Source: Halococcus qingdaonensis (GTDB lineage Archaea > Halobacteriota > Halobacteria > Halobacteriales > Halococcaceae). Taken from it: 64,000 nt of DNA. Where the stretch lies: NCBI RefSeq assembly GCF_024508235.1, contig NZ_CP101943.1, positions 2,081,112 to 2,145,111 on the forward strand. Direction: 5' to 3'. The stretch's first letter is position 1. Every line of letters starts with the position of its first letter. Below the pieces are notes generated by a model, which saw only the letters and a list, made by a program, of their open reading frames with translations, did not search any database and was not told where the DNA came from. The position numbers and the translations under genes are program-made. Shown one piece after another: positions 21,783-29,641 of the stretch.

Positions 21783-23966
21783 TTAGAAGTAATCGACGCT
21801 CGCGGGCAGTTCGAGCTTCATGCCCTTGCGCTCGCGGATCTCCATGATCGTGTCGGGCTGGAGATTGTCGGCCATCACCTGGAAGCCGGCGTTCTCGGTG
21901 TTCCAGGAGGCGCGTCCCTCGGTGGCCGAGCGGATGTCGGAGGCGAAGCCGATCATCTCGTCGACCGGGGCGACGCCCTCGACGACCATCAGATCGCCTT
22001 CCTGGTACATGTCGTCCACGCGTCCGCGGCGACCCTGAAGCTCGCCGGAGGCGGGACCCATGTGCTCGCTCGGGACGTCGATGCGCACATTTTGAATCGG
22101 TTCGAGCATCGAGATGCGGCCGTCGATGAGCGCGCCGTGGACGGCCTGCCGCACTGCGGGGATGACCTGTGCCGGGCCGCGGTGGATGGCGTCCTCGTGC
22201 AGGCGGGCGTCGTCGAGTCGGATGAGGGTGCCCTGGACGGGTTCGGCGGCGAGCGGCCCGTCGTCGAGGGCTTCTTCCCAGCCTTCGACGACGAGTTCCA
22301 TCGTCTCGTTGAGATGCTGGATCCCCTTCGTGTCGTCGACGAGGACGTTCGTGCCGTGGATGGTCTCGATCTCTTGGGAGGTTTCCTTGTCCATCCCGGC
22401 CTCCTGGAGTGCCTCGCGGCGTTCCTGCTCGGGCATGTCCATCGACGCCTCGCCGCGCTTGATCGTCTCGACGACGTCCTGCGAGAGCGGTTCGACGGTC
22501 AGGTAGAACCGGTTGTGCCGGTTCGGCGACTGCCCCTCGACCATGTCGGAGGGCTGCTGGACGGCCTCGCGGAAGACGACGATCGGCTCACCCGTGGTGA
22601 CGGGGATGCCCTGGTTGCGCTCGATGCGCTGGGTGATCACTTCGAGGTGGAGCTCGCCCTGCCCCGAGATCAGGTGCTCGCCGGTGTCCTCGTTGATCTC
22701 GATCCGGATCGTGGGGTCCTCCTTCGAGACCTGCTGGAGCGTCTCGATCAGTTTCGGCAGGTCGTCCATGTTCTGTGCCTCGACGGACTTGGTAATCACC
22801 GGCTCGGAGATGTGTTCGATCGACTCGAACGGCGTCATCTCGATCGACGAGACGGTGGAGCCGGCGATCGCGTCCCGGAGACCGGTGACGGCGGCGATGT
22901 TGCCCGCGGGAACGCTCTCGACCTCCTCGCGCTCGCCGCCCATGAAGATCCCGACCGACTGGATGCGGTTCGTGCCGGCGGTGCCGGAGACGTAGAGGTC
23001 CTGACCGCGTTCGAGCGTTCCCGAGAACAGCCGTCCGGTGGCGATTTCGCCGGCGTGGGGGTCGATACCGATATCGGTCACCATGAAGACGACATCACCC
23101 TCGTCGTCGACGAGACGCATCCCTTCGGCGAGCTCGGTCGTATCGTCGCCACGCCAGACGGTCGGCACCCGTTCGGGCTGAGCCTTGACCGGGTTCGGGA
23201 AGTGTTCGGCGACCATGTCGAGCACGACCGTCGAGAGCGGCGAGTACTCGCGGAGCTCGTCGATCTCGTCGTTGCGGTTGTATTCGATGATGTCGGCGAA
23301 GTCGATGCCCGTCTCCTGCATCTGGGGGACGCTGGTCGCCCAGTTGTAGAGCGCCGAGCCGAAGGCCACAGTGCCGTCCTGAACGGAGACTTTCCAGCCC
23401 TCCTCGTATTTCTCCTCGGCCATCCCGCGGATGAGTTCGTTGACGTCGCCGATCACCGACTGGAGGCGCTCCTGCATCTCCTCGGGCCCTTCCTGAAGCT
23501 CGTTGATGAGCCGGTCGACCTTGTTGATGAACAACGCGGGCTTGACGCCCTCACGAAGGGCCTGGCGCAGCACGGTCTCGGTCTGGGGCATCGTCCCCTC
23601 GACCGCGTCGACCACCACTAAGGCCCCGTCGACCGCACGCATCGCCCGCGTCACGTCGCCGCCGAAGTCGACGTGGCCAGGAGTATCGATGAGGTTGATG
23701 AGGTGGTTGGTCTCCTGATATTCGTGGGTCATCGAGACGTTCGCCGCGTCGATGGTGATGCCCCGTTCCTGCTCGTCCTCCTCGGTGTCCATCGCGAGCT
23801 GCTCGCCGGCGAGATCCGAGGAGATCATGCCCGCGCCCGCGAGCAGGTTGTCGGTGAGGGTGGTCTTGCCGTGATCGATGTGGGCGGCGATGGCGATGTT
23901 CCGGATGTTCTCCGGAGTGTCCATCAGCCGCTCGCATTCCTGAACGATCTTCTTACGTCGGCCCAT
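21783..23966 (-). CDS. fusA: Translation elongation factor EF-2
   Basis: A 727-residue GTPase catalysing ribosomal translocation. It shows [16 protein letters not shown] near residue 25, the switch-[24 protein letters not shown] near 90 and NKVDRL near 145. Domain IV contains [20 protein letters not shown], where archaeal EF-2 carries the histidine converted to diphthamide. The start at 23966 ([15 protein letters not shown]) matches other haloarchaeal EF-2. A CCCTTTTGACC stretch about 31 nt upstream is a TATA candidate. The gene is separated from rps7 by about 5 kb and from tuf by hom, ACT and a small membrane gene. Confidence 0.98.
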
Positions 23967-24136: not shown

Positions 24137-24230
24137 GTTGATCGCGAACTACGTAGCGGGCGTCTTCGACGGCGATACCGGCGACGACCAGCGCCACCAG
24201 GTTGATCGCGAACTATGTAGCGGGCGTCTT
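24137..24230. repeat. Direct repeat pair (30 bases, one mismatch, 64-base period)
   Basis: A 30-base stretch at 24137-24166 recurs at 24201-24230 with one substitution. The copies sit in the 312-base gap between the divergent fusA and HEXXH genes, which otherwise holds nothing I can call. No protein frame explains the duplication. Confidence 0.75.
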
Positions 24231-24278: not shown

Positions 24279-25028
24279 ATGGACGTTCGCGTGCATTCGC
24301 CCGGTCCGGCCGACCCGTTTCTGGGGGCGCGGGACCTCTTCACGACCGAACACGACCTCGCGCTCCCGGTTCACGTCCACGTTCGCACCGATCCCGATTC
24401 GCGGACGTGGAGCGCCCACTACGACGATCGCCACGTCCTGAACATCTCCCGGCAGGCCGCGACCAGCGCGATGGCGCGTCCGCTCGCGCTCCACGAGTAC
24501 TCACACATGCGTCGGTACGAGCAGTCACACCCGTCACATATCCAATCGACCACGGAGGCGCTCACGCTCGCGCTCGCGGGCCACTCGGTCGAGCGCCGGC
24601 GACTCGTCCACTGCCATCAGATCGCGAACCACATGAAGGACATCTACGCCGACGACATTACCCTGAGTGTTGGACCGGCCAACAAGCTCGTGTCCTTCCT
24701 CGAATCGAGTCTCGCGGGCGCGCTCGCCGACAGACCGGTCGATCCACCCCGCTGGACGCGGCTGACGCCCGCGGCCGACCCCGAGATCACGGCCGTCAAC
24801 GCGGCCTTCGCGCTCGCCCTCTTGGAGCGCCACGACTGCATCACCGACAACCACCGCCTCTACGACCTCGCTCACGCCGCCGCCAACGACGCTCCGGGAA
24901 CCGATCTCGCGGCGTTCAAACACCGCTTCCGGGAGCTCGTCGCCGATCCCGACGAGAGTCAGTATCGACAGGCGCTCGTCGACGCGACCCGCGAGTACGC
25001 TCTCCAAACGGACTCTGCCGCCGACTGA
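24279..25028 (+). CDS. HEXXH-containing conserved protein (DUF5781-like)
   Basis: A 249-residue soluble protein. Near residue 70 it has RPLALHEYSHMRRYEQSHPSH: HEYSH is an HEXXH zinc-protease signature. It is followed about 14 residues later by STTEAL with Glu, which could be a third ligand. The rest is helical and acidic. I recall a family called DUF5781 near EF-2 in haloarchaea, but cannot confirm it. It could be a metallopeptidase or a non-catalytic relative. It is divergent from fusA and convergent with the acidic TM protein. Confidence 0.65.
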   Translation: MDVRVHSPGPADPFLGARDLFTTEHDLALPVHVHVRTDPDSRTWSAHYDDRHVLNISRQAATSAMARPLALHEYSHMRRYEQSHPSHIQSTTEALTLALAGHSVERRRLVHCHQIANHMKDIYADDITLSVGPANKLVSFLESSLAGALADRPVDPPRWTRLTPAADPEITAVNAAFALALLERHDCITDNHRLYDLAHAAANDAPGTDLAAFKHRFRELVADPDESQYRQALVDATREYALQTDSAAD

Positions 25029-25044
25029 CGAACCTGCACCGTAC

Positions 25045-25578
25045 TCAATCGGACGTCTCGTTTCCGTCGGCCGGCTCACCGGCCGGGAACTCCTCGACAG
25101 CGACGGTCGATCGCTCCGTCGTGGTCCGTTCGGTCGTCGACGAAGTTACTGTCGACGTTGTCCGCGTCGATCGCGCCGTTGCTCGCGTCGACGAGTGGTT
25201 GGGGTCCGATGCGTCCGTCGTCGGTGGTGCGACCGTCACCACGATCTCCGTCGAAGGATCGGTCGATGCTGCCGATGTCGAAACACCAGCGGAGCCACCA
25301 CCGTCGCTCGGTGCATGCCCGTTGGTCGATCCGCCGGTGTCGAACGTACCCATCACGACCGGATAGGCCATCGCCCCAGCGACGGCGACCACCACGGCCA
25401 CCAGCACCACCGTCGCGACCGTCGTAGTGATGCCGTCGAGCGGCGATCGTTCAGGGGATGTGGCTCCGTCGTTCGATCCGAAACGACGGTCGCCGTCGCT
25501 CGACGCCGTCTCGGACGACCCGAACAGCGATTCGTTCTCGTCGTCACCGAAGACGAACCCGTCGTCATCGTCGCTCAT
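25045..25578 (-). CDS. Single-pass membrane protein with acidic N-terminus and Ser/Thr-rich ectodomain
   Basis: A 177-residue protein. Residues 1-48 are acidic and cytoplasmic-like (MSDDDDGFVFGDDENESLFG), one helix spans about 51-76 (TTTVATVVLVAVVVAVAGAM), and a low-complexity Ser/Thr/Arg tail follows with few globular features. It is the last gene of the DUF6230/DUF6114 cassette, 90 bases after the short DUF6114 gene. The Thr-rich tail resembles O-glycosylated stalks of haloarchaeal surface proteins. There is no known family, and a surface role is inferred. Confidence 0.6.
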   Translation of the reverse strand: MSDDDDGFVFGDDENESLFGSSETASSDGDRRFGSNDGATSPERSPLDGITTTVATVVLVAVVVAVAGAMAYPVVMGTFDTGGSTNGHAPSDGGGSAGVSTSAASTDPSTEIVVTVAPPTTDASDPNHSSTRATARSTRTTSTVTSSTTERTTTERSTVAVEEFPAGEPADGNETSD

Positions 25579-25668
25579 CGATCCACCCGTGTTGGACGAA
25601 CGGTTGGAAGACAGGGGATACGGAACGAACTCGGTGCTGTCATCGGTCGTACTCGACCGCGCGGGGAG

Positions 25669-26043
25669 TTAGCTCTCCGCTTCGGGCTGCCAGGCATAGC
25701 AGAGGTTGCCGCCGAGAATCGAGAGCACCACGCCGAGGACGGCTCCGAGCGGCGTGCCGACGAGCGAAACGACGACCGAGACGACGCCGACCACGCCTAA
25801 CAGCCCCGCGAGATCGGGTTCGACGAGCGCGAAGACGCCACAGAGAAAGGTCGCCGTCGCCGCGACGAGTGCGAACGCCGACGGGCTGGCCCGGGCGAAC
25901 GTGATCCCCATCGAAAATATCAGCACGAACGCAACGGTGATGCCGCCGAGTGCCAACAGCACGCCGCCGAGAAACGGCCGCGACGCCCGCCACTCGCCGA
26001 ACCGTGCCCGATGGGCCGACAGCCCCAGCCGTTCGGTGCTCAT
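25669..26043 (-). CDS. DUF6114-type membrane protein (short)
   Basis: A 124-residue protein with four hydrophobic helices, beginning RARFGEWRASRPFLGGVLLALGGI and ending GNLCYAWQPEAES. The same R-x-RF-x-W-x-x-RPF-x-GG start and CYAW end are found in the N-terminal domain of the next upstream gene, so the two are paralogous DUF6114 domains. Its ATG overlaps the TGA of that gene (ATGA). The family is known in actinobacteria and haloarchaea, often beside DUF6230 proteins, and has no assigned function. Confidence 0.75.
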   Translation of the reverse strand: MSTERLGLSAHRARFGEWRASRPFLGGVLLALGGITVAFVLIFSMGITFARASPSAFALVAATATFLCGVFALVEPDLAGLLGVVGVVSVVVSLVGTPLGAVLGVVLSILGGNLCYAWQPEAES

Positions 26044-28031
26044 CGGTGCCCCCGACGATCGCTCGTCAACACGGAAGCGCCGATGAGTGCTGAGCCGTTC
26101 GTACTGTTTTGCCGAGCGGTCGGGGCCGCCGTTGCCGTAGTCGCCGACGCGTTTTCGGCTCCCACTGCCGCGGCCGTGGCGGTTTCCGTGGTCGTCGCCG
26201 TCGATGCATCGGTTGCCGTCGGCGTCGGCGAGGCGGTGTCAGTTGCGCTCGTCGACGGAGCGTCACCCGATGGGGTCGGAGTGGGCGTCGTCGATGTCGT
26301 CGGCTCGGCCGTCGTGCCGTTTTCGCCGGGCGTGGTCGTCTCGTTCCCTACACTCGTCTTGTTCGTACTGCTCGTCGCGTTCGCCGATTCGTTCGTGCCG
26401 TTTGCGGCGGCAGTCGACACGTTGGTGGAGGCGTTGCTCGCGTTGGCCGAGGCGTTGGACCCGTTTGCCGAGCTGTTCGGCGCGGTGATCGTGAGGGTTC
26501 CGGTGGTCTCGTTCGCGCCGGCCGTGATGGCGTGGTCGTACTCGCCCGGACTCAGTCCGTCCGTCCCGATGTCGGTGAACGAGACGGTCGTCTCGTTGTC
26601 CGGACCGAGCGTGACGTTGCGCTGGGCTAGCGTCTCGCCGTCACGGCGGTACGTGACGGTCGTTTCGTCCTCGATGTAGCCCGCGTTCGTCACGGTCGCG
26701 TTCACGTCGTAGGTCTCGTTTCGCTGGACTTCGGCGGGTGCCGCAAAGTCGCTGACCGTGAAGTTGTTGGTCGTCACGTTCGGGCTGATGACGCCCTCGT
26801 CGGTCAGCAGCGCGAGCGCGTTCGCCGTGATGAGGTCCAACACCGGCTCGATCGGATTCCGGGTACACTCGGGCGTTCCCGAGACGCTCGTCGATTTCGT
26901 CCCGCCCTGCATCGTGAGCTCGAGGTTCTCGATGGTGATCGACTGCGCGGACAGCTGATGCGTGTTCGTCACCACCTTGCTCGAATCGATCGGCGGGCCG
27001 GGCAGCGGCCCCAGATCACCGATCGAGAACAGGAAGTCCTCACCGGGACACGTCGACCACTTCTTGCGCGCCGCCGGGATGACGACCGGATCCTTGCCGA
27101 TCCCCAGTCGCCCGAAGTACGCCTCCGAGGCCGTCAGCGAGAGCCCGTCCGGGGCCGACGCAGACGATCCCTTGATCGTGAGATGCGAAGTCCCACCCGG
27201 GCCGCCACGGAAGTTCTTGTACATCGTCAGCCCCTCGATGTTCACGTTGCTCTTGAACGAGAACTCCCCCGCTGGGACGCTCTCGCGGTTCGAACTGTCG
27301 GTCGTGACGTTTTCGTGGTTGAAGCCGCTGCCCGAGAACTCGTCGGCGACGACGACGGTGCCGTCGATCCCCTCCTGTTCGGGAAAGTCGCGGGCTGCCG
27401 CCGTCATGAGCGGATGGGCGAACGCGCCGAGGACGATCACCGAGACGAGCAGGAGGGCGATCGACGCGGTTCGGCCGCCCGCACCGCCGCCGTCGGCGCT
27501 CGCCGCACGACGCACGCGCGATCGCGTCCCGAACAGTCCGTCGTCGGACTCCTCGGCAGCCGTCTCGTCGTCGGTGAACTCGAAATCGGCCTCCGTGGTC
27601 CCGCCGGAGCCGCCCCCGCCGTTGTCCCCGTCTTCGGTGTCCTCATCACGCCAGGCGTAGCAGAGCACGCCGCCGACGATGCCGAGACCGGTACCGATGA
27701 TGAAGCCGCCAAGCGCGCCGTACAGCGAGAAGATCGAGAACACAACGCCGAAAATCCCGAAGATATCGGCGTTGCCGGGCCGGGTGAGCGCGAAGATGCC
27801 ACAGAGGAACACCAGCGCGGCGAACAACAGCCCGATCGGCGAGAGCGTCTCGCCGATGAGGATGGTATCGGGCGCGATGTTGATCGGAATCCACGCGATG
27901 ACGAGCGACGCCACCACCAACAGCGCACCGCCGGCGAACGGCCGGCCACGCCGCCAGCGGTCGAACCGGGCGCGTCGCGTTCCAACCGACCCGTTACCAC
28001 CGCCCGATCCGGACTGTGTCATTTCAACCAT
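26040..28031 (-). CDS. Large surface protein: DUF6114 membrane domain, DUF6230-like ectodomain, glycosylation-rich stalk
   Basis: A 663-residue modular protein. Residues about 20-130 form a four-helix DUF6114 domain ending CYAWRDED. An acidic Gly-rich linker follows, then a helix near 187-207. An ectodomain (about 215-420) contains blocks paralleling the next gene's DUF6230 domain (VPAGEFSFKSNVNIEGLTM; LTIKGSSASAPDGLSLTASE; SAQSITIENLELTM). A CARDB-like beta domain (about 435-510) follows, with PAEVQRNETYDVNATVTNAG. The tail after about 515 is Asn/Ser/Thr-rich with many N-x-S/T sequons. MTQSG at 28022 is an alternative start. It is probably a glycosylated cell-surface protein. Function unknown. 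Confidence 0.7.
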   Translation of the reverse strand: MVEMTQSGSGGGNGSVGTRRARFDRWRRGRPFAGGALLVVASLVIAWIPINIAPDTILIGETLSPIGLLFAALVFLCGIFALTRPGNADIFGIFGVVFSIFSLYGALGGFIIGTGLGIVGGVLCYAWRDEDTEDGDNGGGGSGGTTEADFEFTDDETAAEESDDGLFGTRSRVRRAASADGGGAGGRTASIALLLVSVIVLGAFAHPLMTAAARDFPEQEGIDGTVVVADEFSGSGFNHENVTTDSSNRESVPAGEFSFKSNVNIEGLTMYKNFRGGPGGTSHLTIKGSSASAPDGLSLTASEAYFGRLGIGKDPVVIPAARKKWSTCPGEDFLFSIGDLGPLPGPPIDSSKVVTNTHQLSAQSITIENLELTMQGGTKSTSVSGTPECTRNPIEPVLDLITANALALLTDEGVISPNVTTNNFTVSDFAAPAEVQRNETYDVNATVTNAGYIEDETTVTYRRDGETLAQRNVTLGPDNETTVSFTDIGTDGLSPGEYDHAITAGANETTGTLTITAPNSSANGSNASANASNASTNVSTAAANGTNESANATSSTNKTSVGNETTTPGENGTTAEPTTSTTPTPTPSGDAPSTSATDTASPTPTATDASTATTTETATAAAVGAENASATTATAAPTARQNSTNGSALIGASVLTSDRRGHR

Positions 28032-28067
28032 TCTGTGTGTCGTGGTGGAAAAACGTATCGACCGTCG

Positions 28068-28745
28068 TTAGCTCAACGTGACGTCGCCGCCGTCGGTGTA
28101 GTCGCCGTCACCGTTGTTGTCGTACTCGGCGGCGAGCGTGAGACCCGGAATCGAGATCTCGTTGACCGCCTGATAGTGAGCGCGGATCGTCGCGTTCTGG
28201 AGGACGATCCCCGGGTTCGAGGCGTTCGAGAGATCGAGCGTCTTCGGACCGCCCGTCGCGCTGTCGACGCCTTCCTGGCGCTGTTCACCCGTCGACGGGG
28301 CGACCTGCTTGAACGAATCGCTGTATTTCGCGTTCTCCTCGTCGATCAGCAGCCCGTTGAACGTCGACGAACTGGCCTGGAGCTTGGTCTGTTTGACGAG
28401 GAGTGAATCCGCCGTCACCGTATCCGTCGAGGTGATCACGATTCGCGCGTTACCGCCGATGGCCGGCACGTCCTCGAGCTCCTTGGTGAGTTCGAGACCG
28501 TCGATCTCGACCGAGGAGAACTCCGCGGTCGCCACCGGGACGCCCTCACGCTCGCTCGTGTCGCTCACGCCCGGATAGAGGTACAGGTCGTCGCCCCGAA
28601 GCTCGTCGGCCTCGATCGTGAACCCGCCGATGCCGCTGATCGGTGCGGCGAAGGCCATGCCGCTGCTCACGATGAGCATCGCCACGAGCGCGACGACGCC
28701 GAACGACACCGCCGTCCCCTTCGCCAAGACTTTCTTATCGTACAT
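28068..28745 (-). CDS. DUF6230-type exported protein
   Basis: A 225-residue protein with an N-terminal signal/anchor helix (residues 9-33, KGTAVSFGVVALVAMLIVSSG then MAFAAP) and a beta-rich ectodomain containing GGFTIEADELRGDDLYLYPG, ATAEFSSVEIDGLELTKEL and NPGIVLQNATIRAHYQAVNEISIPGLTL. I assign it to the DUF6230 family from these features and from its DUF6114 neighbours; in other genomes the two occur as adjacent pairs. It is the first gene of the cassette and is likely held outside the membrane. A TATA box lies about 200 nt upstream. No activity is known. Confidence 0.7.
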   Translation of the reverse strand: MYDKKVLAKGTAVSFGVVALVAMLIVSSGMAFAAPISGIGGFTIEADELRGDDLYLYPGVSDTSEREGVPVATAEFSSVEIDGLELTKELEDVPAIGGNARIVITSTDTVTADSLLVKQTKLQASSSTFNGLLIDEENAKYSDSFKQVAPSTGEQRQEGVDSATGGPKTLDLSNASNPGIVLQNATIRAHYQAVNEISIPGLTLAAEYDNNGDGDYTDGGDVTLS

Positions 28746-28751
28746 GATGTA

Positions 28752-28910
28752 TCACCTGTTGTCGAGTGCGACGCCCGAACGGTGTGCGCCGGCGATCCAC
28801 CGCCATCGGTGGCTCCCCGCGTATGCGGCCGAGGGACGCCCGCGTGGCGACTCCCGCGTCGCGTCGACGTCCCACGTTACGACACCGTCCATGACACCCG
28901 TACTAACCAT
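28752..28910 (-). CDS. Possible 52-residue ORF preceding the DUF6230 gene
   Basis: ATG at 28910 opens a 52-codon frame (MVSTGVMDGVVTWDVDATRE and onward) ending seven bases before the DUF6230 start. Transcription from the TATATAA box at 28951-28957 would begin close to its ATG. The product is Arg-rich toward its end and unlike acidic halophilic proteins, so it may be a leader or chance frame. Confidence 0.3.
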   Translation of the reverse strand: MVSTGVMDGVVTWDVDATRESPRGRPSAAYAGSHRWRWIAGAHRSGVALDNR

Positions 28911-28950
28911 ACCCACGCCTGTGACTGTTCCCCCCGCTATACATGGGCAT

Positions 28951-28957
28951 TTATATA
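28951..28957 (-). promoter_or_regulatory. Strong TATA box upstream of the DUF6230/DUF6114 cassette
   Basis: On the minus strand GTTATATAAATG is one of the best TATA matches in the window. It sits about 200 nt upstream of the DUF6230 gene and 75 nt beyond the rps7 stop, implying that the cassette has its own promoter. Confidence 0.55.
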
Positions 28958-29029
28958 ACAGTCGTTGTTGTCAAAGCGATGGCTGACCGAACAGCGAGGA
29001 TCGGAAACGAAAAAGAACTGTGCGAACGG

Positions 29030-29641
29030 TCAGCGGGCGGCGGCCGCGACGCGCTCTTTCTCCTCTTTCTGGTTGACGGCGTACGTCTGGACGTCGTAGT
29101 TCGCCGCGCCGGTGAGCTGGTCGGCGAGCGCCTCGTGGGCGTCGGTCGGCGACTTGAACGAGGCGCTGTGGGTACCTTCGGCGATGAACTTGAGCGCCTG
29201 ATCGACGCGACGCTGCGGGGCGACGTCGACGGCCTGCGGGACGGAGATCCCACCGTATTTCAGCCGGACGGTCTCCTCGCGCGGGGCGGCGTTCTCGACG
29301 GCGCTGACGAGCACCTGCACCGGGCTCTCTTCGGTGCGCTCGGCGACGAGATCGAAGGCGTTGCGCACGATGCGGGTGGCCTGCTGTTTCTTGCCCGTGT
29401 TCTCGTCGGTCTGCATCAGCCGGTTGATGAGGCGCTCGACGATGGAGATCTCGCTCTTCTGGAACTGCTTGCTCGCGTGACGACCCATCGTGTGCTCCAC
29501 AGGAGTGACGGTGATGTAGCGCTCGGTGCTCGGATCGTCGTACTCGATCCCGGTCACGTCCCAGCGCTCGAACAGTTTCGCGCCGGTCGCTTCCTCAGCG
29601 CCGGCGGGCTGGTCGGGCTCGGGGGCTTCGGATTCGCTCAT
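29030..29641 (-). CDS. rps7: 30S ribosomal protein uS7
   Basis: A 203-residue uS7 with the haloarchaeal acidic N-terminal extension ([20 protein letters not shown]). Core motifs are [49 protein letters not shown] and [20 protein letters not shown]. It nucleates assembly of the 30S head by binding 16S rRNA. It overlaps rps12 by four bases (ATGA). It is the last gene of the rpo-str unit; fusA, which usually follows, is displaced by the cassette. Confidence 0.98.

Follow-up and report, generated by a model that had tools for sequence, protein, structure and literature searches.

We analysed a 64,000-nucleotide (nt) stretch of the Halococcus qingdaonensis genome (NZ_CP101943.1, positions 2,081,112 to 2,145,111; hereafter the window), in which the gap between the ribosomal protein gene rps7 and fusA, the gene for archaeal elongation factor 2 (EF-2), holds a surface cassette built on the families DUF6230 and DUF6114. 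Its four co-directed minus-strand genes encode a DUF6230 protein, a fusion protein of 663 amino acids (aa), a DUF6114 protein and a stalk protein (Table 1). An earlier note on this DNA had proposed such a cassette, exported or membrane-bound and with its own promoter, and profile hidden Markov models (HMMs) bear out the assignment. The first gene product, short and predicted to be exported, matches PF19741 (DUF6230) at E 2.1e-9 with 38.2 bits (gathering cut-off, 27.5 bits), and PF19609 (DUF6114; cut-off, 27.9 bits) is matched twice, by the 663-aa protein (E 2.3e-24, 86.5 bits) and by the 124-aa protein (E 9.8e-21, 74.8 bits). The products are predicted to be exported or membrane-bound, and a TATA box, TTATATAAAT, lies on the minus strand at about 28950–28958, roughly 205 nt 5′ of the DUF6230 ATG, where it is conserved among the other Halococcus genomes that carry the cassette. 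The coupled overlaps that the note described come down to a single one of 4 nt (26040–26043), the other spacings being 36 and 90 nt. At the place of the fourth gene, whose product has no Pfam match, the Halococcus genome G214 has a gene of 174 aa that begins in much the same way, MSDDDDGFVFGDD (likeness judged by eye). The window DNA is 92–96% identical to that of H. thailandensis and H. morrhuae across the cassette region; GC content is flat across the cassette, leaving a recent foreign island unsupported.

Table 1 Features of the rps7–fusA region, with positions in the window
Feature	Position	Strand	Basis
rps7 (uS7), upstream flank	29030..29641	-	NCBIfam PRK04027 and TIGR01028
Promoter element, TATA and inverted repeat ATAAATGCCC-ATG-TAT-AGC-GGGGGGAA	28928..28954	-	Pattern match, matrix score 35.9
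Presumed leader, ~180 nt	28746..28927	-	Alignments; conserved across four Halococcus genomes
DUF6230 protein, 225 aa: N-terminal hydrophobic segment, then beta-rich domain	28068..28745	-	PF19741
663-aa fusion: DUF6114 (residues 23-128), further hydrophobic segment, DUF6230-like domain (~220-400), Ser/Thr/Asn-rich stalk	26040..28031	-	PF19609; hhalign
DUF6114 protein, 124 aa, multi-helix membrane protein	25669..26043	-	PF19609, E 9.8e-21
177-aa protein: acidic N terminus, one hydrophobic segment, Ser/Thr-rich stalk	25045..25578	-	No Pfam match
DUF5781, convergent, constant occupant of the interval, outside the cassette	24279..25028	+	PF19093, E 2.3e-130
aEF-2 (fusA), downstream flank	21783..23927	-	TIGR00490, 1031 bits

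The earlier note had held that rps7 and fusA usually lie close together and that the cassette's location is therefore unusual. Across 145 haloarchaeal genomes, the distance from rps7 to the EF-2 gene was below 400 bp in only 3 and 0.96–20 kb in 109, with the two genes non-colinear or farther apart in 33, which rules out a tight arrangement as the haloarchaeal baseline. All 109 intervals of 0.96–20 kb were read, and every one contains DUF5781, always convergent; in the window this is a fifth gene in the gap, which the note had missed and whose HEYSH motif we take to resemble a zinc-protease site. Our crude gene caller detected DUF5781 in 104 of the 109, and cargo was clustered over these: 35 intervals hold nothing else, and the rest carry 178 open reading frames (ORFs) in 62 clusters, for example a lipoprotein (21 genomes) and BioY-type transporters (11 genomes), both named by eye from the sequences. 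The interval is a variable-cargo site and, because so many unrelated cargos occupy it, the position of the cassette is not by itself unusual. Between fusA and DUF5781, the window also contains a 30-nt direct repeat (24137–24230; 97% identical, spacing 64).

DUF6114 was detected in 13 of the 145 genomes and lies at the rps7–fusA site in 5 of them (G000, G125, G058, G086 and G110). Within Halococcus the cassette is optional: it is carried by the window's genome, H. thailandensis, H. morrhuae and G214, and is absent from G044 and G073. It recurs at the same site in Halorientalis, and the DUF6230/DUF6114 pair sits at other genomic places in Natrinema and Halopiger. With profiles of our own, the two families stood side by side in 20 of 23 loci (DUF6114 was alone at L205, L207 and L213), in agreement with the earlier view of a recurrent pair; the genes are neither universal in haloarchaea nor unrelated to the DUF6230 and DUF6114 HMMs. 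The pair also occurs in Marininema halotolerans (Bacillota), where L204:5958-9501 holds a divergent GAF-LuxR regulator, DUF6230, DUF6114 and a third exported protein in a plan resembling that of Natrinema. Among plasmids one relative was found, in Natronococcus sp. AD-5, and a plasmid search with the Marininema DUF6114 gave no match. A single origin of the cassettes at the site was rejected, as the DUF6230 genes found there do not form one clade (5 changes, at least 3 of them forced by starred branches); the DUF6230 tree has several weak nodes and is compatible both with repeated insertion and with old paralogy.

The proteins themselves go beyond the two-component system suggested in the earlier note, a description that captures the pairing and understates the variety: pairs are repeated, partners are fused and DUF6230 paralogues are borne on stalks. 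In the 663-aa protein, the middle domain aligned with DUF6230 by hhalign over 176 columns (probability 96.2, E 2.2e-9), with no Pfam DUF6230 match and an E value of only 0.008 in hmmsearch with our own profile; by this profile comparison it is a divergent DUF6230 relative, which we do not count as a PF19741 member. A comparable DUF6114/DUF6230-like fusion of 395 aa is found in the Halorientalis-group genome G110, so that fusions occur in two families, and this joining of both partners in one chain supports their physical or functional coupling. In Halorientalis, DUF6230 paralogues have either five PKD repeats or two PA14 domains set into the DUF6230 domain, as at L189:4188-5852, where two PA14 inserts split it, and a gene neighbouring DUF6230 encodes CARDB and PEGA domains. 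At L188:5589-7595, a 668-aa protein combines three similar membrane segments (by eye) with a C-terminal DUF6114. An AlphaFold2 model of the DUF6230 domain is beta-rich (pLDDT 73, pTM 0.70).

Comparison of the regions upstream of DUF6230 revealed a shared promoter element, consisting of a TATA box and, just downstream, an inverted repeat of the form GCCC-N3-TAT-N4-GGGG. Halococcus, Halorientalis, Natrinema and an unclassified Halobacteriales genome all have it, including in cases where cassette location differs. The window's copy is the sole match without mismatch in the whole genome, stands in sense orientation upstream of the cassette and far outscores the next best site in the window (matrix score 6.0). 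Because it lies between the TATA box and the expected start, the element is likely an operator. We searched with the pattern TAAANNNCCNNNYATNNNNNGRGNAA and, as a control, its reverse. In 18 genomes the forward pattern had 14 exact matches, each of which coincides by coordinates with a DUF6230 cassette, and the reverse had none; in 391 genomes there were 43 matches against 7 reversed, 21 of them at cassettes. Eight others precede SCP2-family genes (in G380, G371, G357, G223, G388, G356, G191 and G236; five of these genes were scanned with Pfam, four scoring above the cut-off and L242 just below it, and three were assigned by sequence likeness), and two precede FabG-like SDR genes (G214 and G260).

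When one mismatch was allowed, six Halococcus genomes yielded 14 matches against 9 for the reversed pattern, all 14 within the four carriers and none in G044 or G073. Four are at cassettes, five before SCP2 genes, four before SDR genes and one before an R2lox-like gene; the last scores low (10.9), the other 13 at least 17, and we retain R2lox as a lead and not as part of the regulon, given this one weak site. The strong non-cassette sites in the carrier Halococcus genomes thus stand exclusively before genes for SCP2-type lipid carriers and FabG-like reductases. A matrix built from 13 cassette elements was then applied to 1.16 million positions in the 109 intervals and the window, where all nine sites scoring at least 17 were at cassettes, the best non-cassette site reached 15.0 and the reversed matrix peaked at 14.6. 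Among 40 SCP2 upstream regions picked by protein homology with pattern-known sites excluded (an earlier matrix scan had already covered two of these regions), 9 scored at least 14 in sense, compared with none in antisense and none with the reversed matrix. The remainder of the element scored at least 4 at 11 of 140 TATA-like positions in SCP2 promoters, compared with 2 of 4821 in the background, and in the window's genome the element precedes each of the three SCP2 genes found (19.2, 18.5 and 21.2). On these sequence comparisons, membership of the cassette in a lipid regulon defined by the element is well supported. Similar-looking small membrane proteins (judged by eye) are found next to SCP2 clusters and DUF6230 cassettes (L285:7890-8540, L184:2922-3542 and L289:436-1077), with element-like sites upstream (matrix scores 21.1, 22.7 and 14.3); the one scanned had no Pfam match.

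Gene neighbourhoods point in the same direction. In G260, an acyl-CoA dehydrogenase, SCP2, an acyl-CoA synthetase, an SDR, a regulator of the HVO_0513_N/HTH_10 type, DUF6230 and DUF6114 all lie within 9 kb. The SDR locus of the window's genome contains an acyl-CoA dehydrogenase, an SCP2-like gene and an HTH_10 regulator, and one SCP2 gene of this genome adjoins an acyl-CoA dehydrogenase a few kilobases from polyhydroxyalkanoate (PHA) synthase subunits. HVO_0513_N/HTH_10-family regulators also flank DUF6230 in Natrinema; that of the window's genome is 50–52% identical to those beside DUF6230 in G260 and Natrinema G034, and shares 49% identity with that of G143 and 38% with the one at the second G005 locus. 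Carrier Halococcus genomes have 3–5 SCP2 homologues each; one 39-aa fragment was found in G261, and the homology search found none in G044, G073, G255 or G329. In some genomes SCP2 adjoins an R2-like protein and a ferredoxin, and for one such protein the nearest relatives of solved structure are R2lox proteins. A cluster of SCP2, R2lox-like oxidase, ferredoxin and acyl-CoA dehydrogenase recurs in haloarchaea (L284:7316-12184 and L285:4236-10885) and is a candidate alkane or fatty-acid oxidation module. In PMC10867098, a Geobacillus R2lox is reported as an alkane monooxygenase, and Kumar et al. 2020 are cited for induction of R2lox by hexadecane in Halorientalis hydrocarbonoclasticus.

The transcript leader adds a further feature in Halorientalis. 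There, the cassette leader of about 230 nt has a conserved fold with 49 pairs, 12 of them doubly compensated; 96.3% of cells are paired compared with 91.6% in shuffles, and none of 500 shuffles reached the observed covariation score. A covariance model, R1, matched once, at the cassette, in each of four Halorientalis-group genomes and gave no match in the remaining 8 of the 12 genomes searched, scoring 137–166 bits at six matched Halorientalis loci. The leader sites, which share an invariant TCCCGTGGTGTTGGG block, include L191:2009-2175, L192:7022-7203, L194:6919-7082 and L199:7062-7249. With no match in Rfam, and no known RNA family found, it is a hitherto undescribed leader of an archaeal mRNA, structured and with genuine covariation. 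In the window leader, R1 reached 8.0 bits at best, so that the leader RNA was not detected there, and folding was no better than in shuffles (z 0.19); the four aligned Halococcus leaders are too alike for covariation to be judged. A 51-codon upstream ORF in the Halococcus leader was rejected, and we take this leader to be noncoding, because no third-position substitution bias appeared among three species (by eye).

The reading that we favour, and hold tentatively, is that the cassette is the envelope limb of a haloarchaeal lipid/alkane regulon for hydrophobic substrates of the acyl or alkane type. In this model an optional cell-surface cassette, housed in the variable-cargo site between rps7 and DUF5781/fusA, would be switched on by the probable operator downstream of the TATA box together with cytoplasmic SCP2-type carriers and a FabG-like reductase, plausibly through a regulator of the HVO_0513_N/HTH_10 type. 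The exported, beta-rich DUF6230 domain would bind hydrophobic ligands on the cell surface, held on Ser/Thr-rich stalks in its paralogues and fusions, and DUF6114 may be its membrane partner. The sequences themselves show the gene content, optional presence, pairing, fusion and clustering, and the element common to cassette, SCP2 and SDR genes; we infer the HTH_10 regulator, the lipid or alkane signal and substrate, ligand binding and the direction of transport. Several results weigh against this model. Ten of the inspected non-cassette matches among the 43 precede unrelated genes or none (two more were not inspected), a score of 14 is missed by 31 of the 40 SCP2 promoters, and no SCP2 homologue was detected in four genomes that carry the cassette (G125, G004, G091 and Marininema). 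For DUF6230, Foldseek returned no match at E ≤0.001 and the best VIA-align Z was 3.1; its sequence matched nothing in the PDB, leaving no relative of known function and no known fold to assign, although absence of a match is not proof of a new fold. The DUF6114 model is helical and poor (pLDDT 59.7). The fuller version is rather unlikely as it stands: DUF6230/DUF6114 would form a haloarchaeal surface device for capture and hand-over of alkanes or long-chain lipids, a counterpart of bacterial uptake of hydrophobic substrates, under a dedicated HTH_10-type operator that the SCP2, reductase and R2lox pathways would also use, joined in Halorientalis by a structured, riboswitch-like leader RNA.

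Among the alternatives, the strongest is that the cassette forms a stalked coat or adhesin for attachment to particles, oil droplets or cells, co-induced with lipid genes and without handling lipids itself. The PKD, PA14, CARDB and PEGA domains in and beside Halorientalis DUF6230 paralogues would suit such a structural role, as would the Ser/Thr-rich stalks that end both the window fusion and the fourth protein; however, the core pair has no adhesive domains in Natrinema and Marininema, and the cassette clusters with acyl-CoA enzymes in G260, which makes an adhesive function somewhat unlikely. An induced stress response that stabilizes the membrane or S-layer when hydrophobic compounds accumulate would account equally for the element shared with SCP2 and SDR genes, and a cassette made up mostly of small membrane proteins and surface domains fits it, but no known stress gene was recognized behind the element among the matches inspected, and we consider protection of the envelope improbable. 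That the cassette is neutral accessory cargo with merely a strong core promoter accords with the permissive site and the patchy presence within Halococcus, yet is very unlikely given the enrichment of the element's remainder at SCP2 promoters over background and its recurrence at cassettes in different sites and families.

Two domain families of unknown role gain a testable function from this model, and the shared element, which defines a small regulon by sequence, points to a regulator. Literature searches returned a promoter-table mention alone for DUF6230, nothing for DUF6114 or HVO_0513, and nothing relevant among the titles listed for haloarchaeal surface cassettes near rps7/fusA; 'cholesterol esterase', which we presume to be an old, unproved name for Streptomyces DUF6230 proteins, was not used. 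The cassette resembles the plain DUF6230/DUF6114 pair, whose function is unknown, in that both HMMs score above their cut-offs in adjacent, co-directed genes; it differs in carrying, besides the separate DUF6114, one joined to a second, divergent DUF6230-like domain and stalk, and in that its promoter element is common to lipid genes. Bacteria take up lipids and alkanes through systems such as FadL and Mce/MlaD, and to our knowledge there is no established account of how water-insoluble substrates cross the S-layer and single membrane of archaea. No significant sequence or fold match was found, and the archaeal envelope has one membrane, whereas the proposed role, moving a hydrophobic substrate past the envelope, would be alike. 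Haloarchaeal alkane degradation genes centred on R2lox offer another comparison, made here from the genes alone: the surface cassette is not part of the description in the available portion of PMC10867098, but SCP2, acyl-CoA dehydrogenase and R2lox neighbours share or adjoin the same element.

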